DNA of 64,000 nucleotides. Origin: Moniliella sp. 'wahieum'. Its lineage: Eukaryota; Basidiomycota; Moniliellomycetes; Moniliellales; Moniliellaceae. The stretch is from assembly GCA_003971905.1 (NCBI GenBank), contig RSEE01000018.1, positions 558,001-622,000 of the forward strand, in the 5' to 3' direction. Positions 7,347 through 51,906 of this stretch are shown here, piece after piece (position 1 is the first letter of the stretch; every line of letters starts with the position of its first letter). Under the pieces are notes generated by a model, which was not told the origin of the DNA, searched no databases, and saw only the letters and a program-made list of their open reading frames with translations. Made by a program: the position numbers and the translations under genes.

Positions 7347-7374
7347 TGATCGTAATCGATAATCGATGATCGAT
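7347..7374. repeat. Period-7 array, core TCGA
   Basis: Four heptads: TGATCGT, AATCGAT, AATCGAT, GATCGAT. This is one member of the dispersed T(G/A)A-plus-palindromic-tetramer family described in the findings. Confidence 0.75.
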
Positions 7375-7812
7375 GTCCGCCAACCAGCCACTGGCAGCGA
7401 TGGGTTGCACGACATGGGTCACACACCGCCCAGGATGCAACCGTGTCTAGTGACTAGTGACTTGCGTGTCCCACACCGCGTGTCCCATGGACGTCGCTCT
7501 TCAGGCTTCCCACAATCAGAGGAGAGCATCAGATCCCGAGGAGACCGAGAGCGGGGCTGCGAAAAAACAAAAACAAAAACACCCGCTCATGCCAGTGATG
7601 AATATTGAATTGCGATGCATGACGGATCTGAATACAATGCATCACACGTCAGAGTCCCTGTGACGCGGTGATGGCCACTAGGTCACTCGAGGCGTTGGAC
7701 GTAGGACATGGGTCATCGATGATCAAGGCATGCTGGCATGTGGCACACTGGGCAGTACTGGGCAGTGATTTTGATGTGATGCGGCCCAGAGGCTTACCTA
7801 AGGTCTTCTGAA

Positions 7813-7847
7813 ATGCGTGATGCATGATGCATGATGCATGATGACTC
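7813..7847. repeat. Period-7 array, core TGCA
   Basis: Five heptads: ATGCGTG, three exact ATGCATG, then ATGACTC. In phase this is (TGATGCA)n. Confidence 0.9.
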
Positions 7848-8242
7848 TATCCCGCCCCACCTGCCGGACGAGTGGGCTGGTGCCGGCGGGGGCACTGCTG
7901 AAGCCTGCCGGGGGAGCGCTGACTGATCGGAGCAGGGCCAGGCACGTCGCGGCACAGATCGGCGCCCCGCTGGCTACAGTGCGCTGGTGGGAGGGGGTGG
8001 CCCGCAGGGCGCCAGTGGAGTGTGGGCGTGGGCGGCGGCGGCTGCGTGGCACAGACGCCGTGCCGGCGCGCGGCATGCAGCTCCCGTGGGACCAGTACCT
8101 GACATGCGCTGGGCGAGCGTTTGGCTGGGCAGCACTGCGCCACGGGGGCAGTGTGGAGCGGCCGCGGCGGACGCAAAGCTTCTGGTGCCCACCGCCTCTG
8201 CAGGCTGCTGTGCGCCGCCGGCGCACCACCCGACGGGCAGCT

Positions 8243-8263
8243 GTACTCAGTACTCAGTACTCG
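8243..8263. repeat. Period-7 array, core GTAC
   Basis: GTACTCA, GTACTCA, GTACTCG, which on the other strand is (TGAGTAC)n. It lies about 100 bp upstream of the proposed start of the 8358 gene. Confidence 0.85.
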
Positions 8264-8357
8264 TCCTCCCTCGCCTTGACTCAGTCCAGCTCCTCCACGC
8301 GCCCCCCGCCCCCACCGCCGCTGCCTGCCCCCGACACGCCCTCGCGCCTCCGCCGCC

Positions 8358-10339
8358 ATGCCCCCGCCCCCCGCGCCCGCGCCCGCCCTCGCCCCCTCCC
8401 CCTCGCCCTCGCCCACCCCCAGGCGCCGCAGCCTCCTCGCCAACATCGTCCCCTCCACCCACCGCCCCCACCCAGCCCCCTCGCCCGCGCCCGACGCCAC
8501 CTCCTCCACGCCCCGGCCCACCCGCCCTCGGCCCCCCACAGCCCCCACTCCCTCAACCCCTTCAGGTCCGCCTCCAAGCTGCCCCTCGACCCCGCTCCCC
8601 TCGCCCCGCTGCCCCCTGCCTCCACCGCCTCTGCCTCCACCGACGCGCTCCCCCCATCAGTACCCCGCCGAGGCCCACACCCCCACCGTCGGCGCTACAC
8701 CGACACGCGCCAGATCGACCAGCTGGCCAGCGAGTTGGCCGCCGAGCAGTCCTGGGAGGCCCAGAACCTCCAGCGCCGCATGCTTTCCCCCGGCGCCTAC
8801 GCCTCGCCCCCGGGTGCCTCGCCCGCCGCAAGCCAGAGTAGCCTGCTCGCGCCATCCCTTCGCCCCTCCTCCTCCCTCGCCCGGGCTCCTCCCGTCTGTC
8901 CCCGCTAGCACCCTACCACGCGTCTCCCCAGGCCGTCTTTACGCGCCCCCTCGGCTCTCCCGAAACACGCAGCTTGGACGCCCTCTCCTACCGAAGTGGC
9001 AGCTCTATCCCCCGCACCACCCGCTCTTCCCCTGCCCGCACGGGGTACGGGATGAGCCCCGACTTGATGGCCGGCCTCAGTGATGGGCCCTATCCCTCCC
9101 TTGGGCGGCGCTTGCCCCCGACCCCATCTTCCCGGACGGCCTCGAGTTTGGTCTGCCAGTGGTACAGGAGAACGAGCCACAGGGCAAGGGCAAGGGCAAG
9201 GGCAAAGCCCGCACCAGCTCTGTCGGCCAATCCTCCCCGCTCCGTCCGAACGAATCGCGTCGCTCCTCGACCGACACGCGACATATTCGGCGGGCAGTGA
9301 TGAGCATGTCGCTCCATGACCCCGTTCAAGAAGCGGCAGTGGCTGTGCCGCCCAAAAAATCCGGCTGGTCTTCCCCGTTTGGTGGGTCTCGCTCCGCCTC
9401 CCGCGCCGGCTCGCGGGCTGGATCGCGTGCAGGAACGCCTTCGGCGAGCCAGGCCAATTTGCGCGACACACTGTCCATGTCGCCTGCTGCGTCGTCAGCC
9501 TCCGTTGCCGGGACCTGGTCTACCACGCTGCCCAATCGGTCCACCACCTCGGTTGCGACGTCTGGCCGACGGCGTGGGTCGTTATTTGGTCTGCGGAGGC
9601 ATAAGGATCAACTCTCGCCACTTCCCTCGCCCGTCCCCTCCAAGCCACCCTCACCTCAAGAGACGACCAAGGCGCCTTCCACAGCAGGTCCGGCCTCGGC
9701 ACCCCCCAGTGCCACTTTGTCCGGCTCAGCAGCCAATCGGCCGTCCCGCAAATCTTCTACGCCAACGCAGCCGCCTACGCAAGCTGCATCCCATGGTGGA
9801 GACTCGGCCACCTCTCGTCCTGATGATCCCTCCAGCCCGCCATCAACGGAGACCAAAAGGGCCTCCGTGTGCCCAAGCTCGCCGCTGTGCTCTCTCCGCC
9901 CAGCAAGTCGCCCAGCAAGCCGCCCGCTCCGGAAGCCCAGGGCACCCCTCTGCCCCCGTTGCGCCCCGCTTGCCCCCGACAGCCGCGCAAGGCTCCAAAG
10001 TGCCCATGCCAGCGACATCGCCGGCCTTACCAAGTCCCACGCCTACTCCTAACCGTGCTCCTCAGCATGCTCAGTTATCCCCGCCGCGCAGCCAGCCCGC
10101 TGCTACTGCTTCGGGCCGCGATGCTCCACGAGGCCGGACCCACTCAACACCCAACCCAGTTTCGGGCACCAAGACGCCCGAACCCCCCGCAGCCCCAAGG
10201 GTCCACCAAACCGCCCCCTGCCCCGGCTTCCCAAGGGGGGTTGAGTAAGTTGTTCAAGCGTTTTGGCCGCTCGTCGTCCCATTCCCATTCTCAACCCAAA
10301 ACCAAACCGGCCGGCGGGGTGCAAGTAGGAGGCATTTAA
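8358..10339 (+). CDS. Ser/Pro/Arg-rich disordered protein, unrecognised
   Basis: No known domain is recognised. The proposed start is MPPPPAPAPALAPSPSPSP, the first ATG that opens a long Pro-rich frame. Downstream coding frames join as a chain: a short charged segment (YTDTRQIDQLASELAAEQ near 8697) likely to be helical, a Ser/Arg region (RSSTDTRHIRRAVMSMSL near 9270), RS/GSRAGSRAG repeats near 9400, a basic patch (RRRGSLFGLRRHKDQ near 9570), a long low-complexity Ser/Pro part, and an amphipathic end GGLSKLFKRFGRSSSH with stop at 10337-10339. At least four frame changes are needed. The first 400 bp are so C-rich that two frames give Pro-rich protein, so the N-terminus is uncertain. Composition suggests a scaffold or cytoskeleton regulator, but there is no direct evidence for that. 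Confidence 0.6.
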
Positions 10340-11120
10340 ACCACGTGTACACCTGCTCTGGTGATAACCCCTACCCACACACTGCTCCCCCTACCCTGGT
10401 CTCCCTATCCGCTCATTCCGACTGCCCCATGCGAAAGCTCACTTGGCTTTGCTTGATATACTTCGCCTTCGTTTCCCCGCTGCTGCGTTCCCGCTCGCTT
10501 CAATGGACAAACTGGTCTTGTGTTCCCTCCCCTATTCACGTCAGAGTCTGAGTCTGATTTGCGCCCCCTGGTCCCCCCAGGACACGCCCCGGACCGCTGA
10601 CTGTAGGATGGTCGATCGACAAGGTGCCGGCGGTTGGGGCGGAGGAGAGGTTAGTATGCTAGGCGAGCGCTTGTAATTGGGTAGCCTTCTCTCCACCGTT
10701 CCAACAGTGGCTACGACGTTCATGTAGGGGAGAATTGAAGGCACAACAAAGTATGTGCAAAAAGACGTATACAAGGGTGCTAGGGCCGGGGGGGTGGGCA
10801 AGCCAACGATTCTATCGCAACATCGGGACGATCTGACTGCTACGTCGCTATCTCGTCCTCCCGCTGTACTCGTTCTAATCCGCCGGTTGGGAGAAACGTG
10901 GAATCAAAAGAGAGAACAGAGGGGAAGAAGAGAAGCGGAGACCAACCAATTGGCACCATGTACTGCATCTGACCGATAGGTTTCGCATCAACATCGCTCC
11001 ACTGGGAGGCCGTCTAACGAATGAAAAGAGCGTATTGGGACGGTACACAAAGGGGGAATTGAAGGGGTCATAGCCCTAATGAGCGTGGGGACGAAACAAC
11101 AGAAGTTAAACCAGCATGTC
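10340..11120. other. Convergent intergenic region
   Basis: About 780 bp between the 3' ends of the disordered-protein gene (plus) and the RhoGEF gene (minus). Pyrimidine-rich just after the first stop and purine-rich before the second. No feature that I can support. Confidence 0.65.
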
Positions 11121-15179: not shown

Positions 15180-15409
15180 AGGTACTTCAAACCCCAGGAT
15201 GGCCCCTCCATAGTAAGCGAGGAGGGTAAAGGTGGACAACAGCCACAAGCCGAAGGGAGGGGCGGTGGTGGGGGCGATGGACGCAGGTAGCAAGATTGGC
15301 CAAAGAAAAGCGGGAAAGAAGGCTGCGGAAGAATGGAGAACGGAGGTAGAGAGAAAGCCGAGGCAGGTACAATGACACACTGGGCTTCTGCCCTCTCCCA
15401 CAAAAGCCC

Positions 15410-15467: not shown

Positions 15468-17166
15468 TCACCGGCTGCGGTCTTTCGGCTCTGTGGGCGG
15501 TGGAGGCATGAGGCCTGAGGCTTGTGAAGATGCCTGAACAATAAGGGCGTTGGGGGTTGCTGGCCAAGGAAGGGGGATGTTGCCCTCTACCGAGGATGCC
15601 CGAGGCCTTTGACCTCTTGTTATTGTCCAAATATATGGCTTCTCCACTTTTTTGCTCCGCGCGCCGATCGGAGGAAACATCGGCCACGTGGACCATGGAG
15701 AAGACAGGAAAGGAATCGTTTGACCATGCGTGGGCGGATCGGGGAGATGCGCACAGCATCATCAGTGCTGTTCAACAGGACGTTGTCGGCGGGGTGAGGT
15801 TACCATGGACCAGGTCTTGGTCATGGATCCAAGCGAGAAAGATGAGGATTTGTTTCATGATGGACTGAATGTGTTCCGGGGTCAAGCGACGGCCTTGGAG
15901 GTGACACTTGAGAAAGTAGTAGTCCACAGAGCTGGCTTGGCGGTCAAACCCAATGCACAGTCGGGTGCGCTTGTAGAAAACAAGTCGCGCACGCGCGTCC
16001 GCCCAATCACGTCATCCGTATTCATGGCGCCGACTGCATGCAGGCCCCTGGCGTGACGCAACGTTTCTGTGCGCCCGGCCCTGTCGGAGCCACTGATACT
16101 GCTCTCCACGTGTTGGTTGGTGACCATGATACGGCCTCCCGTACTTGGTCTTGCCTCAGATTTTCGTAACCATGCAGCGGTAAGCCAGAATACTGTCGCG
16201 CATAACCATGCTTGCGGCACCAAGAACTTGCATGTCACCAATGAGGGTGAGAATGTCCAACTCCACTGCTCCTCCTGTTCATTGTTTCGCCGAGCGAAGG
16301 GGCTGCACATGCACACGGTCAAAAGGTTAGCGTACGTTACAGTGGTTTAATGGCACTGATGGGGATGGATTATTACTTTGGCATTTTGAACGGGAGGAGG
16401 AGTTGCATCTTTGAACGGTGGGAGAGGGGCCGGTGACGCCTTAGGCTTCTGAGCGACCATCGCGGGCACTGGGAGGTGCTGTCACTGCGAACGGAACATG
16501 GTTCAACTTGGCCTTTTTGAGCGAGCGTCTGCCCATATCTTTGGTATCCGTCGCGACCGCGTCCTCATCCTCATCCTGGTAGGTGCGGAAACGCTGCACG
16601 CCGGATCAGCTGGCGGTTTCTTGCTGATATAGTGGAGAGGGGAGCAGGCCCAGCTCAGGAGAAGGGCGGCGAAGGGCCGGTGCTGATGAAGACGAGACGA
16701 ACGACTCGACGAGAGCTGAAGACGCTGTCGCCGTCGATGACGAGGTGGCAGCCTTTGCCGTGCAGGAGGGAGGAAATGCGTCGGCCCAGCTGCTGGCATA
16801 ATGATGCTTGTTTCTACTTTGGGAGCATCGTCAAGGCTGTCGGGAGGGTTACATAACAGCTGTGGCCCAGCGGGTCTTGTTTACATCCTTCCAGTTTCGT
16901 GGATGGACATGCAGGTTTTTGGGAACCACACTCCCTTCGGCGTCCGGTGCGGCAGCGGTTTCGTCAACAGATAGCTTGAGCGTCGGTTGCAGCGAGGCCC
17001 GGGCGGACCCATGCAGAGAAGCAGACAAGGCGCAGGGAGGCGAGCAGCAGCAAAGGAGGCGCGCAGGGTGGGCGCACCCAATGCACGTCACACGCGGAGC
17101 AGCGGCAAAAGGACGAGCAACCCAAAGAGTTGAGTGAGATAACACGGTGAGAGGAGAAAGAACCAT
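15468..17166 (-). CDS. Unrecognised protein with a kinase-like domain lacking the catalytic Asp
   Basis: The central part reads as a protein-kinase C-lobe: RLTPEHIQSIMKQILIFLAW (alpha-E-like, near 15860), then HDQDLVHGNLTPDNVLLN in place of the usual HRDLKxxN, so the catalytic Asp is Asn and the HRD Arg is Gly. A possible N-lobe piece, VELDILTLIGDMQVLGAA, lies near 16250. A clear intron is at 16303-16376. The N-terminal frame MVLSPLTVLSHS at 17166 sits about 50 bp below a TATA-like element and has a hydrophobic stretch; the following DETAAAPDAEGS / VPKNLHVHPRNWKDV and RRSLKKAKLNHVP segments match nothing I know. Several frame changes are needed and the region may hold two genes. The C-terminal end (PPPPTEPKDRSR-stop at 15468) is tentative. 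Confidence 0.4.
16303..16376 (-). other. Intron in the kinase-like gene
   Basis: On the minus strand: donor GTAATA at 16376, branch site GCTAAC, acceptor TGTGCAG at 16303 (74 nt). It follows exon end PPPVQNAK. Confidence 0.7.
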
Positions 17167-19077: not shown

Positions 19078-21071
19078 AGCGGATGCAGGGGGTGGGGACG
19101 AGTGGGGTAGAAGAAGAGGTGTGGTGGGAAAAAGAAGCATTCGACTTCCGGGTGAGGGCATTACCGCGTTCCGGGAGTTGACCGTGACGCGTGACGGGTG
19201 ACACTCTTCGGCTCCTGGAACATTTTTCGCCCACGTGCACCGAAGTTTCAAATCACCTCGAAGCACTGCCCCAGTGGCCGGGGGATGAAGGTGGGGCTTA
19301 CCGCTGCCTCTCGCCGATCTCGTTTATCGATTTCAACGATCGTTCACCGTTCTCACAGCCCTGACAGCATGGTACCAGTCACGAAGTCACTAGCTAGACA
19401 CTTCAAGTGAAGCTTCAAGCTCTTCAAGCTTCAAGCTGCTTCCTGGGGGCACGTGTTGCTGATCATCGACAAACTCAGAATTCAGTATACTCGGTCGTGC
19501 GCGGCCCCGGCCAGCCGCGGCTACCTGTTCAGCTTAGCCCGTGGACCTGCTTTGGTTTGGAGGGAGGACGGGAGAATCATGTGGGTCTGGGCAGAGAACA
19601 GCGCCAGTAGCTGGATCGTGTAAGGGGCATATAGACAGTGATGCTGATGAGGTCCCATCCTGCTGCTCACCAAGTGGCAGACGAGGCCGATGAGGAGGAG
19701 GATCCAGATTGAGACGCTAACAGGTGGGGGGCATGGCGACACCCGCTGCGTCTACTATAGGATCAGTCTCACAACACGTGGAAAGGGTGTGTGGGCGGCC
19801 TATTGCATGATGCCTGTTGTTGGGATAATTGCGACACTGCCAGATGGAAGTCGCTTATCCACATGGGCATACATCCATCGGAGAAAACGTCTCTCATTCT
19901 TTGTTAAAAAGGCAGCATGGGTGGGAACGTACCCTAAGCAAGCATGGCGTATAACCGCCGGAGAGGATGGTGCGAAGTAGAGCAAATCAGATGAAGGCAG
20001 CAACAGCAATGATAACTGTTCATCTCACAGCTTCGTATATATGAAGACCAGGGTAATACTGCTGCAGGTCCATGTGAGAATGGCTGGGGACCACCATCCT
20101 GACGCCTAAGCAGTTCTCCCTGGGGAGGGAATGGCGAACCAAAAGAAGAGAAACCGTTCAATGCCATGAAACGAATCAAGAAGTGAAGTACGCATTCTGA
20201 GTTATAGTACGGGACTTGCCTAACAACCTAAGACCTAGATGAATCCAAGGCATTATATAATAAGATGTCAGCGCCGCGATATAAAGGGGGTTCTTCAGTG
20301 GGCTCCATAGCAGTGTGAGTGCACTTCCAATCGTAGGGAAGAGGTCATGACCAAAGATGGCGAAGGCAAGGTGACAACACTTGTGGAAGGCACAGTTCTA
20401 GGAAGTAGTAGAGCGAAGGGAGACTGCGTCCTTCTGAGATGGACTATCAATGGACTACTACGGTGCGAATTCGCTGAGCCCGCTGGGAAAGCATCTGTTG
20501 AACTGGCACGGTCCGCACTTCCGCAATGATTGCAGGATCCTGAATAGAGAGACTAGTGAACACTGGATAAAGGCTGGCAGTTTAGAGAATATTGCAACTA
20601 GTGACACTCTCCCAGCGAGAATTGGTTCGAACGACCACTGAAGAGCTCGGATACATCATACACAATGCATGATGAGGCGATTAGAACGGTCCACAATGCG
20701 GAGACTCCCCCCAGGCAAAAAATTGTCCACCCTTGCTGCCGTCAGGAATAAGGGAGACAGTTGACGATCTGGAATAATGGGCATATAGGCACCCGATCCC
20801 AGCAACTTGCACCCTTCGTGGCTCTTTAGAAAAGCAGGAGTATCAGTCGAATCCCTAGGTAATATAGCCATGGGCACGCGCTACCTAGGGTACGGGATCG
20901 GATGGCGCGATCCGGAGGGTCCTGATATCCTGGCGATCCCCTGGTTCCTTGACCCTGGTGGTGCCCCCAAGTAACCCCGCAAGATGAACGGTTAGGATTA
21001 GACGTAGCGTTCCCCCTGTCCCAGCCTTAAGCTCTGCCAATGACATGGAATCAGCCATGGGAAACGCCTGT
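19078..21071. other. Intergenic region, 2.0 kb
   Basis: No gene that I can support. It contains TGACGCGTGAC at 19185, a (AGCTTCA)-type array near 19405-19440 and an AT-richer stretch at 20200-20300. A short open frame at 20347-20529 has no similarity that I recognise. Confidence 0.6.
19403..19440. repeat. Imperfect AGCTTCA array
   Basis: Several copies of GCTTCAA or GCTCTTCAA in about 40 bp. On the other strand this is the TGAAGCT heptad. Confidence 0.6.
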
Positions 21072-21684
21072 GCACTTTTTACATAAGCCTCACGTCAGCC
21101 CGGGTGGCGCAGCCACCCGTCCCAGCCACCAGCAACAATCGGTGATATTATTTCGTCTTTCCAGCGTGGAAGGGTTCCAGCGTGGAACGTGGCCGGTGGA
21201 ACGGTGGCTAAGGTGGCGAAGGGGGACCAGGAGAACGGTGGCTAAGGTGGCGACGGTGGACGGGAGAACGGTGGCTAAGGTGGCGACACAGCAGACCGGG
21301 CCGTAGGCCCGGTGGTCTCCTCGTATAGTATACGGCACAGTACAATATATACAGTTGTGTCTGCGCCTTATTTCAAACGGTGAATGTGGGATCATCGATC
21401 ATGCATCATGCATCATGCATGTATCGATTATCCTTCTGCCCACACGACCAAGCCTATTTCCGCACGAGGAGACCACCGGGCCTACGGCCCGGTCTGCTGT
21501 GTCGCCACCTTAGCCACCGTTCCCCAGTCCACCATCGCCACCGTAGCCACCGTTCCTCCTTCGCCACCTTAGCCACCGTTCCCCCGGTCCACCGTTCCAC
21601 GCTGGGAGGGCAAATAATATCACCGATATACTCTGGCTGCGGGTGGCTGGGAACGTGTCACGGGGCAGCTGAGGTAAAAAGTGC
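21072..21684. mobile_element. Fold-back inverted-repeat element
   Basis: The ends are exact inverted repeats GCACTTTTTAC / GTAAAAAGTGC. Long arms (left 21072-21324, right 21464-21684) are inverted copies of each other and share, in order from the outside, GGTGATATTATTT, the word CCAGCGTGGAA, three tandem copies of a unit containing AACGGTGGCTAAGGTGGCGA, the hairpin CCGGGCC-TA-GGCCCGG and GGTGGTCTCCTCGT. The 139-bp middle has no coding capacity and holds a period-7 TGCA array. A related single arm occurs at 49181-49393. The form fits a non-autonomous fold-back or MITE-like element; I see no convincing target-site duplication. Confidence 0.7.
21391..21425. repeat. Period-7 array, core TGCA, inside the fold-back element
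   Basis: ATCATCG, three ATCATGC, ATGTATC. The other strand reads (TGATGCA)n. Confidence 0.85.
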
Positions 21685-26911: not shown

Positions 26912-26964
26912 TTCAAGCTTCAAGCTTCATCGTTGGATGCGTGGAACGTGAAGCTTGAAGCTTG
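26912..26964. repeat. Period-7 arrays, core AGCT
   Basis: TTCAAGC, TTCAAGC, TTCATCG at 26912-26932 and TGAAGCT, TGAAGCT, TGAGTAC at 26949-26969: the same unit in opposite orientation about 15 bp apart. Confidence 0.8.
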
Positions 26965-27053
26965 AGTACTGAAAAACTGAGTGCGAATCCCAGCGCGATC
27001 TCAGACCTCTGATGTGGGATTGAGCTTGGGCTCGGGGGTTATCGAGTTCTATA

Positions 27054-27074
27054 GTTATCGATTATCGATTATCG
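27054..27074. repeat. Period-7 array, core TCGA
   Basis: GTTATCG, ATTATCG, ATTATCG; the other strand reads (TAATCGA)n. Confidence 0.85.
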
Positions 27075-29403
27075 ACCGGTTAGCCGAGCACCTGTGATCG
27101 ATGATCAGCATCTCGGAGTGTGAATATGCATGCACAGGAGCCGAGCGGCTGCCCCTACTCATAGGCCTGCTGTCATGATCATCATGTCCATATGCGATAG
27201 TCCTCCGGAGGGTGAGAGGAAGGCGCCTGAATGGGTTGACGCGTGACGGTAACATCTGTGACATTCATATGTGGGTTGTTGTTTTGGGAGTGCCAGCCAG
27301 CGTTGTTTGTGTACCGAACAAACCGCATCTCTGGATACAAAGACATCGTACATACTCCCCTGTACTTTGTTACGCAATGCGCAATACCAGAGATGCGTTA
27401 TCATATTCTGCACAATCAAACGCCTCCATTCCCTCTATGCAAAGCAGCTCTTTTTGGTCCACACACAGCCTCTCTCTAGCAGCGGCCCTATCCCCTATGG
27501 CGTGGACGTTGAGCCGAAGCTGTGAACGGCAAACAAGTAGCCTTTACTATGCCAAGCGTATTGGAAACGAGATGTCTCAAGCGGGCAGAAGCAATATTCG
27601 AGTCTCTACGTCATAACAAAAAAAGACGTCACCTATTAGCTTTGGCCGCCAAAAGGCTCTCCAAATGCGATTCACCATGGGAGTCATAAGGGCTGTGTTT
27701 TTGAAATGTAGAACATCTTGGCTGGCTGCATAGCCTTTTGCCATTGGACAATTACCACGACGCCAATCTCCGGCTTACTCCGGCTCCCCCACACACTCGA
27801 CGTCATGACGTCGTTAGTACTCCGCATCCCCCGAACGATTCGCGGTGTTTTGGTGTCGTTGCTGCGGGTCTCGGCGAATGACTCGATGACGCAGATTGCG
27901 CTTGGCGAGCCCGCCCCGCCCCGCCACACGCACACACCCATAACACACACCCACACACCTTTTCTTTTTTTTTCGCCCCCCCGTATTCAGCGCAAAAGAG
28001 TATAGGCAGCAACCCTGTTTTGCTGCACAATAACTCGTTACAGTTGATGCTGCAGCAGCCCTGGCCAAGAACAGTCGATCGCCATGTGTTTTAGGTATCG
28101 AGTCATTGCAACCCATACGTTCAGAGGCATGCTGCTATGATTGAGAAACACAGGGGAAACGTGCCCCGGCCTCGCTAGTTTGTGGAGATTTGAAGCAAAT
28201 CGACTTGAGCAAGTACATTACAACCTACCCTCGCAGGCCCCTGGGAAGAAGAGAGGTCTGAAATGTCGGAATACTGATAACATAACCAATTTGCGCACGA
28301 GGCCCAAACCTCGATCGATAGGTCCTCGTGGAGACTCAAAAAGCTGACGATATATATAGCCTTCCAAACCCACCCCGCGGATACTAGAATTGTAATAGGT
28401 ACTCGTCTCCTCTCACACTTTTTGCAACTTCTACTTCTCTTTTTCCCGCCACCAACTGTCTTTCCGTTCCACACTCTCACTTTTATATGGCTTCCCCACA
28501 TTGGCCCTGAAGGGACGCTTACGTCTGTACTCTAGCCCTTTTTCGGTCTTTTTCTCTTCGAACCCCATCAGCCATTGTTTGGGACGAGTGCGAGAGAGGC
28601 ATGGGCACTGCACTAAGGAGAGTTATTTTCATGTCAGAGGATTGTTGCTCGCGCGTTTGGACAGGGTCTCTTCAGTCCCTCATCAGGACTGGGAGAGCTC
28701 CTGTTTTCTCGCTTATATGTCTTCACTGTTCGATAGTGGCAATGCCCCGATGTAGCGAATGGCACAGAGGGGGGGGGGGGCACACACGTTAATATAGTTA
28801 TGGCCTCAGCCCTAGCCTCGCGTGGTTTTGTTTTGTTGATGACGACGATATGGCCAATACATTTCCCCTTTCAACATATGCTTTTACTCTTCAAGCTTAT
28901 CCCCGTTAACCATTACAGGATCTCGCTGCATCATAGTTTTGGACTTTTTGGTAGAAGAAACCAGCCGGATTAGATATCTGTGTGTGCTGGTGACGCTATA
29001 TATTGACCTCTATCTGCTCTCTTCAGTGGGGGTGAGAGGCCGGCCGCGATGAGGATTCTTGTTCGCTATTTACAATAGTAAACGACGTTGAACGTTCAGT
29101 TGAACACTGTACTCTGCCCGTTTCTACACTCCCGGCGGCGTATCCGGCGCGCCCCCCTGAGTCTATGCAGGTCCAAGTTTTGAAAAGCTTCAACTCGCAG
29201 GCTCGGCGAAACACAACGCTTTTGTCGACATGTGACGCGTGACGTAGCCACTATAGTAGTGACCTGCAGCGAGTGGCACTGAGTATACAGCCAATGGTTG
29301 TGCTGTGCACTCACACTGCTGCTGCGAAGTACCAAGTACTTCCTGAGTGCTGTGGCCAAGAGTGCTCCGCAGGCTCAGCCTGAGCCGCTGACTTGGACAG
29401 CTG

Positions 29404-29452
29404 ACATGTGACAAGTGACATGTGACATGTGACATGTGACATGTGACATGCA
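29404..29452. repeat. Period-7 array, core CATG
   Basis: ACATGTG, ACAAGTG, four further ACATGTG, then ACATGCA; (TGACATG)n. A second, broken stretch of the same unit lies at 29550-29590. Confidence 0.92.
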
Positions 29453-30279
29453 GCTTGATGCATGTGCATGAATTGACAAGGTGTCAGGTAATCGATGATG
29501 TCTGAGATCTGATGCATCTGATGCATGATGCGTGATGATCGATGACATCGATGACATGTGACATGCATGACATGTGACATGTGACATCAATATCATCAAT
29601 GACGTGATGACATGTGCCATGCGACATGCGATATCTGCAAGCTGTCAGCGCTCAGGCGCTCAGCGGCGCTCAGGGCGCTCAGTTTCGGCGCCGCGCTCAG
29701 CACGCTCAGCCTGAGCACCTCGTTGCCCCTCCAACCGGAGACAGCACGTCGGAATCGAGAAAAAGCAGCAAGTATGTATATGACAGGTGTCGAATGTCGT
29801 CTACGTCATGCATCTACATCATGCATATCCATCGTGCCATGTATGTACACAAAGTGGGTGTTCAAACGTTCCACTACGTTCACGTACGTTACACGTAACT
29901 GCAGCCCAGAATTGATGCAGCAGGATGCTGGATGTGGAGCATGGTGTTTCTTCTCTCACACCAACAAATAATAAGATGCAGTCCCAAACTATTGCGCAAC
30001 AAAAAAGCCATCGCACCTCGCTAATGCTGATGCACTGATGGTCTTCAAAACCACATCCGGCGGCGGAGAGACGTACACACACAGGGCTTAACAATACTTG
30101 GTACGTAGTGCGCTTGTTACTCTCCGCGTGGGCTTGCGCGACCCCCATCCGAGCCCCTCCACCTTAGATCGCTCAGTCACTCAGGGGCCTCTTTCTTCTA
30201 AGGCCTCTTTGGTTTCATATGGCCTGTGGCCTCCATCCTGAGGTCAGGCCTGAGGGCCTGAGGGCCTGACGCGTTTTAT

Positions 30280-30339
30280 GCGTTACGCGTTACGCACCAT
30301 GCACGCCTAATGTATCACGTATCACGCGCCACATATCAC
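30280..30339. repeat. Two adjacent period-7 arrays, cores CGCG and (non-palindromic) ATAC
   Basis: GCGTTAC, GCGTTAC, GCACCAT at 30280-30300, then GTATCAC, GTATCAC, GCGCCAC, ATATCAC at 30312-30339. The register is kept although units differ. Confidence 0.8.
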
Positions 30340-30901: not shown

Positions 30902-30922
30902 TACTCAGTACTCAGTACCGAG
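30902..30922. repeat. Period-7 array, core GTAC
   Basis: TACTCAG, TACTCAG, TACCGAG. Confidence 0.8.
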
Positions 30923-31194
30923 TCTGAATACCCTCAGTCTGAGATCTGAGCCTTTAAAGCTTAAGGGCTTAGGCCTTATAGAATCTCTCAGCCCCTCAGG
31001 CTGGGTGTCAGGCTGAGGACTCCGCCTCCATGCGCCACAGCTGAGATATGAAATGAGTTTCAGAATAGATCTATTCCATAAATGAGTCGATACCGAGGTG
31101 GCTTTCTTGGCTTTTGAGATTTGAGAATACTACAGGTACGTACTTGAAGCTTGAAGCGTAATAAAGCTCGGATGTACGCTCCTAATAATAAGCG

Positions 31195-31222
31195 GTGACT
31201 AGTGACTAGTGACTAGTGAAGC
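31195..31222. repeat. Period-7 array, core CTAG
   Basis: Three GTGACTA then GTGAAGC; (TGACTAG)n, switching at its end to the AGCT core. Confidence 0.88.
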
Positions 31223-32346
31223 TAGTGACTTCGTATTTTGTTGACATGGATGTTGAACGTTGACTAGCGCGGATAGTGGCTAGTGTGTACTGACTAGGAC
31301 ATGACGCATGAACGTCACGAACGTTGAACTCAACCGCTGATCGTACAAAAACAGGCCATACTGAAAAATACACATGCCGAATATACTTAACGGGGGGGGG
31401 GGCGTGGTACACACGTCTTCATTCCTCACACCTTCATCCCACAATGAGTTTTTGCCATATGTTTTCCTTGTTTGAACGTTATTTTGCTTGGGAAGATCCT
31501 TCTCTCTCCGTTTCCTCAATTCAACATCAACCCAATATTCCATGGGAACTAACGGAGGCATCGCCAGCACCGCAGGTATCTCCTGACTCTCTCATATGAA
31601 ATCGAAAAGCTTCCAAAAAAGCTGCCGATCACCGGAGAGGAGCGCGAAGCTACAGCCTGTGACATGTGAAGCTTGAAGCATAGGGTGTGGTACCGGGTAC
31701 TCACATGTACCCTACAACCGTGAACTTTTTCTGCGAGACATCTTGTTCTTGCTCAATCTGAAAAAAAAAACTAGGTACACATATCTTGAGAGGGGGAGCA
31801 CTAACATGCTTCAGAACCACGCACCATGCACCGTGCCTACTCGTGCTGTCCTGATGGGTTGTGGGCGCGGAGGGAACGAAAGTTTTCACAGGTGAACGAA
31901 CGCCCAGCGCTCACGCGCTCACGACAGATGTTCAAAGAAGTACGTTCAGATCTCAGAGAAGCGCCGAGAAAAGGAATGGTTTCCTACTGACGCGTGACGC
32001 GCCTCTCTATCTGAGACGTCAAAGAGAAAAGGAGTATATGTTATTAACAGGGGAGTAAACGTTAAACACTCCAGCTAAAGACTAAGCGCAGGCACTCCGT
32101 TACAATGCAAGAGCACAGTTGTTCAATGTGGCGCAACCTTTGCCGCTTTGGCAGTTTCAATATTAAGCAGTTCTTGGCGTGTGAGACAAACGTGAGACAA
32201 CCGAGACCCTGTGGATCCCTTCCATCCGTGTCCAAGGAACCCGATTGGAATAGGATCGGTTGCACCCCACTCCACCCCTCCCTTCCATTTTTCTCGGCCG
32301 TGTGGAGGACACGACACGATGCATTATCCCGTGCATGTTTTACCGA

Positions 32347-32360
32347 GACGCGTGACGCGT
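32347..32360. repeat. Period-7 array, core CGCG
   Basis: GACGCGT twice, followed by GAAATTT; (TGACGCG)n. Single TGACGCGTGAC copies also occur at 19185, 27237, 29233, 31988 and 48219. Confidence 0.85.
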
Positions 32361-33772
32361 GAAATTTGGTGGCGGGGAAGGGAAAAGAAGAAAGCCCAAA
32401 TTCACAGTCGGGGCTAAGGCGAGGGTGACCAGGGTGGATACTATGGGCCAAGGGGTGCAGCAATCGTTCGTGGGGAAGAAGCAAGTGCAAAGCGGAAGAA
32501 ATAGAGGGAAAGAACGAGACGCTCGCCGAACGAAGAGACTGGAAATGGGAGCGAGATCAGCGCTCAGCCAAACTATGACACTGCGGGTCTGTTGCCTACA
32601 ATCGAGATGTGAATCTCACGCGTCGCGTCTCAACGACCTATCACCCTCCTCCTCAACGGATGTGAGGCTAACCTTTTAAAATACTTCTTGCCCTTGACAA
32701 CACCGAACGGAGGAGATCCATCTTCTGTTCCCATCAGTACTCAGTGTGGTGAACGAGTCACATACGTAGAGTCAACAAATGTAGGAACGAGAGAGGATAG
32801 CTTTTTTGGGAGAGGAGAGGGTGTCTCCTCTCGCATCCCCTTTCGTTTGGTCTTGCCTCGAGCTTGCCTCGAGCTCGCCTCGAGATGCGGATGTTCGTTC
32901 TCTCACGTGTTTCGATCTCGGGCGTAATGCTCTTCTGAGATCTGAATCCTATGACATGTGACCCTACTGTGACAAGGCGTGGGACCCTGAGGCCCTGAGA
33001 CCTGGTCGATGATCAGAGGGCCTTAGCAGCCTTATTTAGAGCATGCTTCACTGAACCTATAGCTAGAGTGTACCGTCTAGAATTGAGTGCGCGCGGGCTG
33101 CGGTATACCCGATACAGCCGGTACTATATATCGTCCATCCCAATACTTGTATCATGATCGATGACTTCGATGACAGGAACAAACGATCCGTGACCGGCGT
33201 GACCGCGTATTCAGACCCCCGAGACCGATTGAGCCGGGACCAGCGCAATGTATGTACCAACACTCGTATAGGTATCCCCTTCTGTATGCATCTCCGGCGA
33301 AAGTATCGCATCCGCCACAATACATTTGTTGTTACATGTTATCCATGTTATCCACCGTGCACCGCTGGCCACTTTGTATACACATGGTACAGCCATGCTT
33401 GATACATGATGCAAGACACGGCGCGAGGTCGGTGTGAGCCGCAGGCTGTCTATCGATTCTTGAAGGAGATCCACATCATGCTCATGCATCATGCAACTCT
33501 CGTAGGCGTCTGCCAACGACTCTCCTCCCGCGTAGCTTGGCAAAGGTTGGCTGAGTGCCACAAGGTCATCCATCCATCTCTTTGCAATCGGAATTACGGT
33601 TGAGGGTTAGTGCCCAATTCGCACCATACCATACGAGGGGCGTCTGATACCTGATCCGCGCCGACATAGTGGGGCATATAGTGCACGGTGCATTACAAAC
33701 TGCGTAGTGACAGAGGTTCCAGAAGCATCTCCTACCGGTATTGTGAGGATTGTGAGGAATTGGTAGCCATAC

Positions 33773-43154: not shown

Positions 43155-43771
43155 GGTGGTGGGGGTCGAGTCGATGTCCGAGCGAGCAGGCGAAGAGCGA
43201 GGGCGGCAGGGGAGGAGCAGCGAAACAGCCGCCGTGCGCCCCGGATTTTTTTCCCCTCTGCTGCCGCCGGCCACACTGCCCGCATGCGGCGGCGGCGCGT
43301 GGGCATGCTTCGGGGGCGGAATGGCGACGACGCCGGCGGAACAGGCGGCGTGGTCCAGGCTGCCCAAAGTGAAAGTTGCAGTCCGGTGTGCAGGCGCGTG
43401 GTGTGTGATGTGCACGGTGTGATGTTGGGGGCAGAAGGCGGGGGCTGGTGGTGACCGGTGACGGTGACCGGTGAGGGTGCCAGTGAAGCTAGTGAGCGTA
43501 AGCGTGACGGGTGGAGTGACGGGTGGCAGGCACGGGAGGCGGGGCACGGGGGCGTGCTCCACTGAGGCGGCGCGGCGGCCCCGAGCAGGTGGGAAGGCGT
43601 GGCGGGCGCTGGGGCGGCGGCCGTGGCACACGCGAGCGACACAGACCCTCGCCCGCCTGGGCCACAGTCTGTCCCCAGCGGCGCGCACGCTGGATTCGGT
43701 CGATTCAGGATTGCCTGTGCGATTGATACGCCGCCCCGCTCCTCTGCCCACCCCCGCTCCTCCCCGCCGCC
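43155..43771. promoter_or_regulatory. Divergent promoter region eIF3L / MAP kinase
   Basis: 617 bp between two divergent starts. GC-rich, with GTGACCGGTGACGGTGACCGGTGA-type repeats near 43450-43475 and GTGACGGGTGGAGTGACGGGTGG near 43503. No TATA box was recognised. Confidence 0.55.
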
Positions 43772-45131
<1,360 letters not shown>

Positions 45132-45653
45132 ATCCTTATTGGCGCTGCCTCTGACCAAGTCCATCTACATCCCCTCCTTGCCTCCGGCCAGAATGTTGGT
45201 CCAGATGATTGGCTTATCCCCATGTTCTTTGCTGTATCTCCGTTCTTTTTCACTCTTCCATACACTCTCCCTTTCTCACCCTTCGTCCTTGGGCATGGTG
45301 TGTACTGAGTCTGATGAACCCGCAACATTTTTTTGATATAACAACTGGTGCCAATGGCCCCACTACGTTCCTCCTTCGTCTGGACCCGTTTCCCCGTCAT
45401 CTGTCACTAGCCTCGTCTCTCTTGTCTACCAGCCAGCTGTGCCTTCAATCCATCTCCTAATGCTGATTTGGAAGTACCCTGTGTCCCAACGCAGAGGGGA
45501 TAACAACGCATTCCCCCTCCTGGCTCTCCCTCGTCCCCCCTTTTCATGTGAACTGTAGCATATTTGGAGGAGCAATAGGAGAGGCATGGGTATTGTCGTA
45601 TATGGAGGCAAGAGAAGCACGATGCCGTGAACGCATGAATACAAAATGCAGAA
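45132..45653. other. Convergent intergenic region MAPK / Stealth gene
   Basis: About 520 bp between two 3' ends, pyrimidine-rich after the MAPK stop. No gene that I can support. Confidence 0.6.
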
Positions 45654-47211: not shown

Positions 47212-47968
47212 AGTCGGTGAGGCGCTGAGCAGTCCTGGTTTCACGCGTCTTCCGGAAGCGGTGGCCGTGGTGGTGAGCAAGAAGATGTGCATTTGTTCTG
47301 AATCCCCCTGGGCTGTGTGTGGTAGGCTTGACCACTGCAGGTGGGTTGAATGTTCCTTGCCTGAGACCCGGCGCGACTGCCACCGTGAAGCCGGTGAAGC
47401 TTGAAGACGAGAAGGCCCGAAAGCTGATGCACTGAGGGTGCGCCAGCCGGCACACATCGTTTCATCACCCCCATCCCACCCGCTGTCTCGCCTGGGTCCG
47501 CTCGGGTCTGACGCCGTCTTGCTCCGCTGCTTACGCGGACCACAGGCACCTCTGCGAAATCATATCACACAGCCGGCAGCCTGCCGAACAAGGCCGGTGT
47601 TGGCAATGGTATCAACGTCAACACAGCGTCAAGGTTCAAAGCGTTTAGCGTGAACACATCGAACATGATTCTAAGCAGGGCGTAATGGGAGGTGGAAGAG
47701 CCTGGTGGAGCACACAGTGAGAAGCTGCATCCCACCACTGCCACCGCCATATGTGCCAATCTCATTTTCTTTTACTTCGGGTTCAACGTGTTCAAAACGT
47801 TCAGATGTCGTCAGACGAGTATATAGCCACAGAGTGTGGAAACTAGAAGCCGATTGCTGGCCTCGATGGTCACCGTGTTCGTTGGGCCTGACTGTCACTA
47901 TGTCATGGAAGTTGATCACAGACTTAATCACAACTTGCTCGAGGTTGTCCACATGTATATGTAAGCTA

Positions 47969-47989
47969 GTTAAACGTTAAACGTTAACA
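47969..47989. repeat. Period-7 array, core ACGT
   Basis: GTTAAAC, GTTAAAC, GTTAACA; in phase (TAAACGT)n. Confidence 0.85.
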
Positions 47990-48387
47990 AGGCGCTCTAA
48001 GATAACCCTAAGCGCTATAATTATGGTGCGAAACAGGAAGAGAGTCGGCGTATTAGCGCAGAGCGTAGCGGTACTACCACACAATATCTGGCTAACTGAC
48101 GGCAACACGTGATGCACGAGATGGCCCCAACGGAGTGGGAACGAGCGAGAGGCTTCTGACCACGAACGCAAAGGTGAACGAAATCTCCAGACGAAGAGTA
48201 TGTCGCCTGGTGTCGCTCGTGACGCGTGACGTTGAAACGCGTGAAGAGAAGAAAACCAGAAGGAGAGGGAGAAAAGCGACAACAGAGAAGAGCACACAAA
48301 TTGTGACCGTGTGATGGATCGAAACGGCGCACGATCGCGAGGACAACGCAATACTAGCGTAGTGCCGACGCATCATGGATGATCTAG

Positions 48388-48408
48388 ATGATCGATGATC
48401 GATGAGGC
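48388..48408. repeat. Period-7 array, core TCGA
   Basis: ATGATCG, ATGATCG, ATGAGGC; (TGATCGA)n. Confidence 0.85.
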
Positions 48409-49020
48409 GACCTGAGTAAGAGTCTGAGTATACTATAGTGCACAATCATTAATCATCGATATTGTAGCGACGCGTGAAAAGGCTCTGACCTGGAGACACC
48501 TAGTCTCTAAACCACAGACGATCAGCGAGTAGAAATCAAGTAACGAGGTGAGCGAGAAGAAGGGGAAGGGGGAAGGAGAGGTGTTGGCGAAGAGGACAGA
48601 GCAAGCAGTGGGACAGGAATGTACACGTGTGGCCTGCTGGCCTGCTCGCGGCAACTCGAGGGTCTAGCTTTCACATCTACAAATCACAGGCAAGGCACCG
48701 GTGGGTGACATGGCAACAATATCGATCATCTCCAAGTTAATTAAGTCACAGCAGTACGAGCTCTACAGCATCAGAGCGAACCGCGGTTCACTTGTGCGGA
48801 TGCAGACGCAGATATCAGAAGGTGAAAACAGACGGATGATCGATGAAGAGAAGAACAGTGGAACCCATTGGACAGGGAACGGATTCCGGGCGGAAGCCCG
48901 GAGCCGTACCCGTCCACAAAAGCCCGGTACGAGTGTGAGAGATAGTGACACTTCGAAATACTACACAGCGTTACCTGAGGCCTGATGTTACAGTATACAC
49001 AGCCTTTTACTGACGGTACT

Positions 49021-49041
49021 GACCGGTGACCGGTGACCTCT
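49021..49041. repeat. Period-7 array, core CCGG
   Basis: GACCGGT, GACCGGT, GACCTCT; (TGACCGG)n. Confidence 0.8.
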
Positions 49042-49180
49042 CTCTCTCGTATCAAAAAACCATGTCAGTCCCATTAATAGACTAATGGGGAAAGGTTTCA
49101 CTTCTAATAGTACTAGAGACTAATAGCACAGTAGGACTGTCAAACCTCAGGACCTCAGGAGGCAACTTCTCCTCCACAAG

Positions 49181-49393
49181 GAGGACTACCACCGGGCCTA
49201 CGGCCCGGTCAGCTGGGGCTTCGCCCCAGCTGTGCTGCGTCGCCACCTTAGCTACCGTTCCCCCTTCGCCACCGTAGCCACCGTTCCACCGTCGCCAACA
49301 CCGACATAGAGAAATAATATCACCGATGCTTGCTGCTGGCTGCGGGTGGGGGTGGCGTGGAACGTGGCACGGGGCAGCTGATGTAAAAAGTGC
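49181..49393. mobile_element. Solo arm of the 21-kb fold-back element
   Basis: It matches the right arm at 21464-21684: ACCGGGCC-TA-CGGCCCGGT hairpin, CGCCACCTTAGC(T/C)ACCGTTCC units, AAATAATATCACCGATG, GGCTGCGGGTGG and the end GTAAAAAGTGC at 49383-49393. It differs by an added perfect hairpin CAGCTGGGGC-TTC-GCCCCAGCTG near 49209 and has two rather than three of the tandem units. No left arm was found nearby. Confidence 0.7.
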
Positions 49394-49855
49394 CAGGACG
49401 ATAGTAACCACTAATCGATCTTCCACAGTGCGTGCGTCGGTGGGCCCCGAACGGGACGTCGTAATCCGTGCCAGAAAAGTGGAGCATGCGTCTGGAAGAG
49501 CGACATCCGTGCGCTCTGAGATCTGACTGCTGATCTCTCTCAGCGTTATGAGACCTGAAGTCCTCATGGTCCTCGACGGTGCTGCAACTGCACTGGCGGT
49601 GGTATAGTGGTCTAAGCAGCAATGCCTACAGAGAAACAACAAGCAGCTAGTCACCACCAGGGTGGCTACTAGGCTGCGGAACAGGAAAACAGAAGAGAGA
49701 AAACAATGGAATTCTTATATTACGCCTGAGGAGGGACAGAAGGGACGTTGGCCAAAACACGCGAGCTACCCGCGGTGGCTAAACACATCAGTGCCCTCGT
49801 TGTAGCCTAGCAGACTCCCTATATGATAGAGCAGTATACGCTCGGCACTCGCCCC

Positions 49856-49876
49856 CTCGCGGGGCCTCCCCGCGAG
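49856..49876. other. Perfect GC-rich hairpin
   Basis: CTCGCGGGG, loop CCT, CCCCGCGAG (9-bp stem). It is followed directly by TGAC. No gene context, and a role as terminator is not supported. Confidence 0.6.
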
Positions 49877-50251
49877 TGACACACGCCTGCCTTGTTCTTT
49901 TGCGCTTAGGACGCCTGAGAGAGGGGGAAGCTCTGATGATCGATGACTGATGATGACCACGGTATAGATAGGCAAGTAGCTAGTAGCGGGGGGGAGAGTG
50001 TGAAATACCACATGGATCGCGAGTGTCTCGGCACTAAACTTTGTGGTTTTATCTGAGATCATCTGTTGAGAGGTATATAGGGGTCTTCCGTGGATACTGT
50101 CGTAGTATTAGTTGATGGAACCGAACTGGATTCGCGCGCATGATAATTTAATTCGCCCCATAGCAAGACGTTATCGCGGCATCGATGGAGAGAGTAACTG
50201 AGTTCACTGAGTACTCCATCTGAGTAGTGCTAGTGAGCTGAAGTAGTGACA

Positions 50252-50279
50252 CTAGCGACTAGTGACTAGTGATTAGTGA
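50252..50279. repeat. Period-7 array, core CTAG
   Basis: CTAGCGA, CTAGTGA, CTAGTGA, TTAGTGA; (TGACTAG)n, the same unit as at 31195. Confidence 0.88.
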
Positions 50280-50297
50280 GGCATGATGCCGAAGAGA

Positions 50298-50336
50298 CTT
50301 GAAGCTTGAAGCTTTGGAGCTTGAAGCTTGAAGCTT
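50298..50336. repeat. Period-7 array, core AGCT
   Basis: CTTGAAG twice, a one-base slip, then GCTTGAA twice. Confidence 0.8.
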
Positions 50337-50745
50337 ATTGAAGAAGACTGAAACAGTTTTGTGAGAGGCTCAACGTTTGACGTGGTTGACATGTTGACAC
50401 CTACGCCACCAACCTCCGACGGACATTCATTTGCATTCTACGATGCGAGGCCGAAGAAGAGATTTTCGACAGGCCGTATTTCCATCTCCTAAAAACATAG
50501 GTGAGCGTGAAAAGCATATGGCCAGGTGGTTGGAGTGTATTGTAAAGATTCAACGTATACATTTTGAGCACGTTCGTTGGTCTCACAGTCTCAACAGTAA
50601 CTCAATACAGGATTCATATTCACATGTGACAGTATGCTCTCTGTTCTCTCTTTGGTCCAGCGTTCAACATGACGTGCTCGCACCTTGCTGCAATGACTAG
50701 TATCTAACTCTATTCAAAACAAAACACAAACGTCCGCAGAAACTC

Positions 50746-50766
50746 ACTCAGTACTCAGTACTCATC
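50746..50766. repeat. Period-7 array, core GTAC
   Basis: ACTCAGT, ACTCAGT, ACTCATC; the same unit as at 8243 and 30902. Confidence 0.8.
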
Positions 50767-50946
50767 TCAATAGATCTCAACGATCATCGATCCTCGTTAT
50801 CTGCATCATGCATCACTATAGTCACTAGTCACTTTCGGTCTAAAGCATGTTCTGCATTTTTGATGCATGTCAGTTGGACGTTGGCGGCGGAACCACATGG
50901 ACCCGATGCAGTCGTCTGGTGGGAGACGGGCGGGAGGTGGGGAACA

Positions 50947-50981
50947 TGAGATCTGAGACCTGAGACCTGGGATATGAGAAC
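50947..50981. repeat. Period-7 array, mixed GATC / GACC / GATA units
   Basis: TGAGATC, TGAGACC, TGAGACC, TGGGATA, TGAGAAC. The seven-base register holds across five units although bases vary. Confidence 0.88.
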
Positions 50982-51293
50982 CGGACTAGCCGGTAACAGG
51001 GTACCACCACAGGTTTGCTTTATCGATACGCGTCCTCTCCCTCAGAGATACAGATGGCTTTTTGTTGAAACGTCTCGCCCTTCACGATACGGAAGACATC
51101 CCGTTTGTTCAACGTTGTTCAGGCCCGCCTTAGGCCTCAGGGCCTCAGCAGAAATAAAGCAGCGGAGTCGTTGGATCATTGATAGAAGTGGTTTCTGGAC
51201 TGGTGGTTCGGTACCGAGAGATTATCGAGTATCTAACAGATTCCAAGAACCGTGTCAACAATTAAATTAGGCGTGAGATCGATGTGAGAGATA

Positions 51294-51425
51294 GCATGGG
51301 GACATGAGGACATGGGGCATGGGGACATGGGGCATGGAGGCATGGCGACATGGACATATGGAGACGTGGGGACATGGGGACAGGTGACATGGAGACATGG
51401 AGACATGGGGACAGGTGACATGGAC
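51294..51425. repeat. GGGGACATGG-type minisatellite
   Basis: About 130 bp of ACATGG / GGCATGG / ACATGGAG units with 7-9 bp spacing, including two copies of GGGGACAGGTGACATGGA. Units share CATG with the TGACATG heptads. Confidence 0.85.
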
Positions 51426-51467
51426 AGGGTGTGATGGTGTTTTCACGGTTACCGGTTAGCCACTGCC

Positions 51468-51488
51468 GTGACGCGTGACGCGTGAATA
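51468..51488. repeat. Period-7 array, core CGCG
   Basis: GTGACGC, GTGACGC, GTGAATA; the same unit as at 32347. Confidence 0.82.
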
Positions 51489-51885
51489 TCAATCTTCGTC
51501 CGACAGGTCACGCGGTCACCCGGTCACGCGTCGGCGGCCCACATGTCACATCCGCCGATGCGCCCATGTCCCATGCTTCACATGTGATGCATGTGACTAG
51601 GAACTCATGCGGACACACGGCCTACAGGTCCCATGCATCACAGGGGTTAGCGCTAAGCTTAGCGGGCAAGCCACGTCTGTGAAGCAAGCATATGCTCTCC
51701 AGAAATCCACATACTCTCGGGGCTTTTTGTACCACGCGTCTGTCCCGGGCCTGAGCAGTGCCTGAGCGCTCCCAGGCCTGTGCCTTGGGCCTGAGGTAGC
51801 CGCGGTGCTGAGGCGCTGAGGCGCTGAGGGTCCTTGGGCCTGGCCATCGAATCAGGGTCAGCTTCAGGGGGGCTGCAAATGTACG

Positions 51886-51906
51886 TAACGCGTAAGCGCT
51901 AAGCGC
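51886..51906. repeat. Period-7 array, cores CGCG and GCGC
   Basis: TAACGCG, TAAGCGC, TAAGCGC, then TAAATAC. The TAA version of the unit. Confidence 0.85.

Follow-up and report, generated by a model that had tools for sequence, protein, structure and literature searches.

Introduction

When a transposon leaves hairpins on the flanking DNA, its mark is a target duplication accompanied by P nucleotides, bases complementary to the adjoining flank. According to the available portions of the papers cited here, excision of Ds in Candida albicans leaves short deletions or palindromic P-nucleotide insertions, which are attributed to hairpin opening and in connection with which the Artemis-related Pso2 is discussed (PMC5873905); rice excisions tend to be messy, 8 of 94 having a clean double duplication (PMC4423477). 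Target duplications of 7 bp are described for the hAT7 transposons of rust fungi and for Kyakuja (KDZ) of Laccaria (PMC12730594), and also for Galileo of the P superfamily, with the consensus GTAGTAC (PMC2775673). In V(D)J joining, Artemis opens hairpins, and overhangs are filled in or removed before ligation (PMC13041557). Here we consider the period-7 arrays and related junctions of a window (the whole 64-kb stretch analysed, G000:C18:558001-622000) from the basidiomycete Moniliella sp. 'wahieum', whose assembly comprises 69.5 Mb in 223 contigs. Read on one strand, their units consist of TGA or TAA followed by a self-complementary tetranucleotide, and we think it likely that these heptads were left by the excision of a DNA transposon that duplicates 7 bp of its target and forms hairpin ends, with arrays produced by repeated hits.

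The sites resemble Ac/Ds (hAT) footprints in showing short P-nucleotide insertions and small deletions at the join (PMC5873905). They differ from them in that one junction type, with 2 P nucleotides kept and 2 bp lost, dominates, and in that they occur at about 0.7 loci per kb, in tandem arrays, with no element seen; such uniform junctions are unusual beside the messy excisions of rice (PMC4423477). Whereas hAT duplications are usually 8 bp (PMC12730594), those found here are 7 bp, and although the scars appear, by analogy, to work like hAT excision, we neither file them under hAT nor claim membership. The 7-bp length is shared with hAT7 and Kyakuja, but no hAT domain lies above cut-off in this genome and a genome search did not find the KDZ domain. 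Flanking hairpins are not known to be involved in P-type excision. Galileo has the same duplication length and a different target motif (PMC2775673), and V(D)J coding joints share with the present sites P elements, end joining and, if we read the joins correctly, opened hairpins (PMC13041557). The footprint chemistry itself (hairpin opening, P nucleotides) is thus already known. The conjunction of a TNA-centred 7-bp duplication, a near-single junction type, this density and tandem arrays was not met in the accessible portions of the open-access literature searched; a literature search on heptanucleotide repeats found nothing relevant among the papers listed, and an Rfam search of the window gave no match.

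A lag-7 rule holds across the genome

The rule that governs these repeats is genuine and genome-wide. Of 46 exact lag-7 dimers of at least 14 bp in the window, 35 combine T(G/A)A with a palindromic tetramer, a pattern that fits 2.7% of random 7-rings, and Markov shuffles of the window (20 for each of orders 1, 3 and 5) hold a mean of 0.1-0.45 such dimers each. Outside the window, we sampled the same genome by position in twenty stretches of 10 kb, where the rule fits 78 of 164 lag-7 dimers. When window and stretches are pooled (264 kb, the sample used below) and both strands are read, NNNN is palindromic in 241/435 cases of TGA-NNNN-TGA and in 48/93 of TAA-NNNN-TAA, against a background of 5.9%. 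A reading of the window made from its sequence only (the sequence-only reading) had named in advance what would refute it, namely no excess of palindromic over other tetramers, or equal frequency in shuffled sequence; the excess is there, and shuffled sequence does not reproduce it.

Mixed flanks (TGA..TAA 10/42, TAA..TGA 8/40) and inverted flanks (TGA..TCA 18/84, TCA..TGA 28/96) show the palindrome more weakly. The only large excess of palindromic spacers between TGA and TGA is at length 4 (241 vs 26 expected), with small ones at lengths 2 (34 vs 25), 3 (63 vs 52), 5 (18 vs 10.2), 6 (10 vs 3.8) and 8 (3 vs 0.5). At least 15 of the 16 palindromic cores are present among the matches listed, TATA not being one of them, and whole-genome matches number 96 for three units of TGACGCG and none for three of the non-palindromic TGACGGC. 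Selection for hairpins or inverted repeats was considered and rejected: non-palindromic inverted tetramers around TGA occur near expectation (40 vs 32), so that stem-loops as such are not enriched.

The sequence-only reading had counted about twenty sites up to position 51906, none of them coding. The sites are real but considerably more numerous: merging gives 66 loci in the window, the furthest of which ends at 53061. The coding claim is nearly right: one of the 66 falls in spans taken as coding, whereas their length would predict 15. Note that these eight spans (14,547 bp) were drawn around open reading frames (ORFs) with Pfam or eIF3L matches and that some were widened to neighbouring frames that were not scanned.

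Junction anatomy and the duplicated target

What recurs is a 12-bp element rather than a heptad. The unit event reads abTNA-b'a'-abTNA(cd), or its mirror image, so that a 5-bp word is repeated 7 bp apart and a 2-nt inverted copy of the flank sits between its two copies. At palindromic TRA sites (n=247) the lag-7 match is exactly 5 bp in 72 cases, compared with 10, 14, 41 and 32 cases for 3, 4, 6 and 7 bp, and rises a second time at 12-14 bp (13, 6 and 9 sites); non-palindromic TRA pairs fall smoothly from 3 bp (76, 54, 36, 27, ...). Slippage of heptads would yield matches of at least 7, and the peak at 5 therefore makes the common element 12 bp. The sequence-only reading was correct in holding simple slippage to be inadequate; its arrays of 2-6 units exist, but the commonest site is a single 12-bp event.

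Among NNTNA words repeated 7 apart, the intervening dinucleotide is the inverted one in 334/451, where 1 in 16 would be expected (TGA 144, TCA 143, TTA 27 and TAA 20 by centre); P nucleotides complementary to the flank are thus found, and direct target duplication is seen both at the joins and between empty and filled alleles. After merging, the main class amounts to 210 loci in the pooled sample, as opposed to 0-4 in each of ten shuffles and to 1-16 for each of the 15 other centres. The 144 loci in the 200 kb outside the window extrapolate to a genome total of about 50,000. No base preference is clear outside T.A in the 64 exact single events of 333 junctions. Since the tetramer consists of b'a' followed by ab, nearly every palindrome occurs, and the palindrome is a by-product: nearly any two bases beside TNA will yield one, which is how a single rule unites unrelated cores, as had been proposed. 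The ladder of dyads pointed out earlier is likewise present, as a consequence of junction structure. Of the agents suggested for setting the register, neither a binding factor nor a common template finds support; a palindromic tetramer need not be recognised as such, being two TNA-adjacent bases and an inverted copy made at the join. A repair process probably does set it. The 7-bp register, held to be exact, is dominant, but period-8 arrays and lag-8 and lag-9 junctions share the same logic.

To determine the length of the duplication we classed joins by whether the two ends of a 7-bp duplication abTNAcd are trimmed or P-extended, with expectations taken from other centre letters. On both strands, and with overlapping classes, (2,-2) is found 334 times vs 6.8 expected, (2,0) 26 vs 1.2, (2,-1) 32 vs 1.7, (1,1) 16 vs 1.3 and (1,0) 24 vs 3.0. 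Away from main junctions, where some sequences satisfy several classes, the counts are (2,0) 12 vs 0.28, (0,2) 7 vs 0.63, (2,-1) 12 vs 0.75, (-1,2) 16 vs 0.91, (1,0) 11 vs 1.47 and (0,1) 13 vs 1.51. Because the (2,0) and (0,2) classes duplicate all 7 bp, a duplicated target of 7 bp, NNTNANN, is well supported. A duplication of TNA alone (3 bp) around a random palindromic insert was rejected, given that the insert repeats neighbouring bases and that (2,0) and (0,2) duplicate 7 bp.

Empty and filled alleles

Contig C9 is colinear with the window, with 86-93% identity in the main aligned blocks. Matches to eIF3L, usually a single-copy gene, occur at four places (C5, C9, C18 and C27); together with this colinearity, they suggest that the genome is probably polyploid or hybrid. 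We compared two stretches of C9 (15 kb), opposite array-rich parts of the window, in eight aligned blocks of 10,840 bases with 406 mismatches (3.75%), unaligned parts being left out. Pure-gap indels of 3-20 bp number 83. Fifteen of them measure exactly 7 bp, and the longer copy has an overlapping junction at 14 of these 15, compared with 12 of the 68 other indels. The shorter copy carries no junction in 12 of the 14, and in 11 of those 12 it has a single intact TNA site. Either homeolog may be the filled copy, depending on the site. One 9-bp indel (GCAGGGCGTAATGGG to GCAGGGCGTAATGCGCGTAATGGG) duplicates the full 7 bp and classes as a (0,2) join. Under a strict reconstruction that allows no nearby point differences, 8 of the 15 7-bp indels are explained if the centre must be TNA, and 10 if any centre is accepted. 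Overall, there are 14 junction indels per 406 mismatches between the homeologous contigs, in stretches chosen for being rich in arrays.

Copies of a repeat resembling a long terminal repeat (LTR; L009:2468-3011, at least 50 matching genome pieces listed, 40 of 193 candidates scored) allow a similar comparison. Of the 33 copies examined, 22 were aligned and 11 judged by blast layout. The 22 aligned copies hold nine junctions, and for eight of these the inserted bases are missing from 18-21 of the 21 other copies; being the minority state, the insertion is the derived one. The ninth (L035), at 1/21, is an alignment error. At one site most copies read TTCTGTTGATGCC, while L018 and L033 carry TTCTGTTGAACGTTGATGCC, perhaps by common descent of one event. 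An LTR-retrotransposon-like element lies at L015:2862-6499, with LTRs of about 180 bp (TGTCA..TGACA) that are 98% identical and a 5-bp ACCAC duplication; further copies occur at window 32402-32584 and elsewhere.

Loci in the window and neighbouring features

Table 1. Arrays, junctions and filled sites in the window (positions count from its first base).
Position	Feature	Remark
7353..7375	array, units TAATCGA / TGATCGA	
7447..7462	array, unit TGACTAG	
7818..7843	array, unit TGATGCA, 3.7 units	
8243..8262	array, unit TGAGTAC, read on -	
15509..15521	junction TGAGGCCTGAGGC	
19183..19196	array, unit TGACGCG	
19422..19437	array, unit TGAAGCT, read on -	
21390..21420	adjoining events, TCGA then TGCA cores	
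26912..26965	two TGAAGCT arrays	15-bp indel vs homeolog adjoins first array
27055..27075	array, unit TAATCGA, read on -	
29232..29244	filled site GTGACGCGTGACG	homeolog C9 empty GTGACG, 7-bp indel
29402..29631	event cluster, TGACATG / TGATGCA / TGATCGA	several larger indels vs homeolog
30280..30295	array, unit TAACGCG, read on -	
30902..30950	TGAGTAC array and TCTGAGATCTGAG junction	
31143..31219	TGAAGCT and TGACTAG arrays	
31252..31263	filled GTTGAACGTTGA	homeolog empty GTTGACT
31946..31957	filled TCAGATCTCAGA	homeolog empty TCAGAG
31988..32001	array, unit TGACGCG	
32347..32362	array, unit TGACGCG	
32557..32568	filled TCAGCGCTCAGC within LTR-like copy	homeolog empty
32934..32945	filled TCTGAGATCTGA	homeolog empty TCTGAAT
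33474..33495	TCATGCA array	
43450..43474	GGTGACC junctions	
47969..47987	array, unit TAAACGT	
48387..48405	array TGATCGA	one unit longer than homeolog
48974..48985	filled CCTGAGGCCTGA	homeolog empty CCTGATG
49020..49038	array, unit TGACCGG	
49515..49526	filled TCTGAGATCTGA	homeolog empty TCTGACT
50251..50336	TGACTAG and TGAAGCT arrays	7-bp unit at 50267, one base off rule, missing in homeolog
50746..50833	TGAGTAC, TGATGCA, TGACTAG arrays, read on -	
51467..51485	array, unit TGACGCG	
51884..51909	TAACGCG then TAAGCGC units	
52963..53061	TCAAGCT, AATCATT, TCACTAG units	past earlier end point

Other repeats do not follow the TNA rule: an array of CATGGGGA-like 8-mers at window 51295-51423, and long heptad arrays of GCACCAA (L009:9014) and GACACAG (L026:5257), about 100 bp each. 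Dispersed, partly inverted GGTGGC / GCCACCGT repeats occur at window 21199-21600 and 49238-49297, and also in L062. A Pfam scan of ten window ORFs, one of them without a match, gave matches above cut-off that include glutamate synthase, myotubularin, deoxyhypusine synthase, eIF3L (Paf67) and GH16. The glutamate synthase frame (window 1218-3284) is interrupted, in frame, by a segment that resembles the homing endonuclease of the PI-SceI (VMA1) intein, with residues 161-328 matching PI-SceI and 392-685 glutamate synthase. Elsewhere, eight microbial-type rhodopsin domain matches lie on C8, C39, C15, C43 and C23.

Discussion

The inverted, P-like dinucleotides and the existence of empty and filled alleles are direct features of the sequences, as is the anatomy of the junctions; from them we infer a transposon, a hairpin chemistry and an order of steps. 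Imagine a cut-and-paste transposon that inserts at NNTNANN and duplicates those 7 bp, with only T.A clearly constrained. On excision, the flanking chromosome ends would be sealed as hairpins, which a host nuclease would open 2 nt off the tip. A 4-nt self-complementary overhang, made of the last 2 duplication bases and 2 P nucleotides, would be kept on one side, and the opposite side would usually lose 2 bases, so that joining would give abTNA-b'a'-abTNAcd or its mirror, a net gain of 7 bp; less often the opposite side would lose 1 or 0 bases, for gains of 8 or 9 bp. Artemis prefers to open hairpins 2 nt from the tip, which gives a 4-nt 3' overhang, and keeping one such overhang while losing the other would produce the dominant join exactly. 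Arrays would arise because each scar retains intact TNA sites, at which further hits on the same spot could lengthen it.

A number of observations weigh against excision as the source. Foremost, no element with a 7-bp NNTNANN duplication turned up in the window and the fetched loci, nor in the 33 LTR-like copies or the homeolog stretches. Across the window and L001-L028, 17 of 4,076 terminal-repeat pairs have a TNA-centred 7-bp duplication, 11 of which are the arrays themselves, the other six matching the 6.3 expected from other centres; in the same sample, no elements with terminal inverted repeats at such sites exceed chance. Three large insertions with readable ends, of 180 bp (L050), 222 bp (L049) and 256 bp (window 48463-48718), were rejected as candidates, since they resemble LTRs and have 4-5 bp duplications. 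Genome searches for hAT (PF05699, PF14372) found nothing above cut-off, with control genomes also silent; the search for KDZ (PF18758) gave no candidates, its control silent too, and none lay above cut-off for MULE (PF10551). The positive control, eIF3L, was detected. These negatives are weak, as introns, divergence or few copies could conceal a transposase. Two sub-threshold hAT matches (E 0.04 and 0.05) form a locus pair 95% identical, with ORFs that do not look transposase-like by eye, and were set aside. Further insertions comprise a 2.8-kb and a 0.4-kb one in L062 and a short one in L061. At L062:2219-5299, about 2.8 kb of the homeolog has little counterpart in the window, and its ORFs have been listed.

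The junctions hold adverse points as well. Clean 7-bp duplications without P nucleotides, (0,0), show no excess (19 vs 17.5), joins of the (2,2), (2,1) and (1,2) classes number zero in the 264 kb, and away from main junctions all five (1,1) cases (vs 0.56) also fit (2,0). Transib/RAG-type target duplications are 5 bp, and the main class alone would be compatible with a 5-bp duplication plus 2 nt; it is the rarer classes that need 7. Among the alleles, the twelfth empty one, at 27660, lacks the T of TNA by substitution, the 7-bp indel at 50267 overlaps only a neighbouring junction and its added unit is one base off, and the fifteenth 7-bp indel has a T.G centre.

Could the same scars arise with no transposon in residence? 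TNA sites might be cut continuously by a hairpin-forming transposase whose resident element was lost or never needed, either because the enzyme is domesticated or because elements are removed as programmed. We regard this as improbable; if true, excision-type scars and not slippage would be the main source of 7-bp intergenic indels and microsatellite-like arrays. The narrower proposal, in which TNA sites suffer staggered, hairpin-ended breaks from a domesticated transposase or a comparable nuclease and misrepair adds 7 bp, would account for many events with no element seen and for the negative hAT and KDZ searches, but only a small part of the genome was read and those searches say little. Moreover, a single hairpin-ended break gives P nucleotides without duplication, as in V(D)J chemistry, whereas an element that integrates and is then excised would be expected to leave a 7-bp duplication, and we judge this proposal a little less probable still.

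Processes that need no such enzyme fare worse. Replication slippage, or hairpin-stabilised expansion of self-complementary heptads, would fit arrays of 2-6 units and the two of the 15 7-bp indels that add a unit beside an existing junction (window 48387 and 50267). However, whole-unit change from an existing repeat is not what the alleles show, as 12 of the 14 shorter copies have no junction and hence no heptad repeat on which slippage could act; match lengths are commonest at 5 and do not form a falling series; and the equally self-complementary C.G, G.C and A.T centres have 5, 8 and 5 loci to the 210 of T.A. Slippage is thus contradicted for the origin of the scars and very unlikely as a general explanation, although later growth of arrays may owe something to it. 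Polymerase-theta-like repair also makes short inverted copies of flanks, yet templated insertion at ordinary breaks would hardly impose a fixed 7-bp register, restrict the inverted part mostly to 2 nt and demand T.A so strongly, and we give it slightly less credence than slippage. That the repeats are selected binding sites, or chromatin elements forming a 7-bp ladder, seems the least plausible of all: their intergenic placement would suit such a role, but frameshifting 7-bp insertions would be purged from genes even without function, nearly any two flanking bases serve with no clear preference, and copies differ between homeologs.

If the heptads are indeed excision footprints, a puzzling sequence rule gives way to a concrete mutational mechanism, one that would contribute notably to the intergenic indels of this genome and that suggests that microsatellite-like arrays may be built by repeated transposon visits. 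The scars would then document hairpin opening in this lineage, which seems to take place mostly 2 nt off the tip and to keep the extra bases on one side, and would provide a countable record of cut-and-paste activity even where no element is visible.

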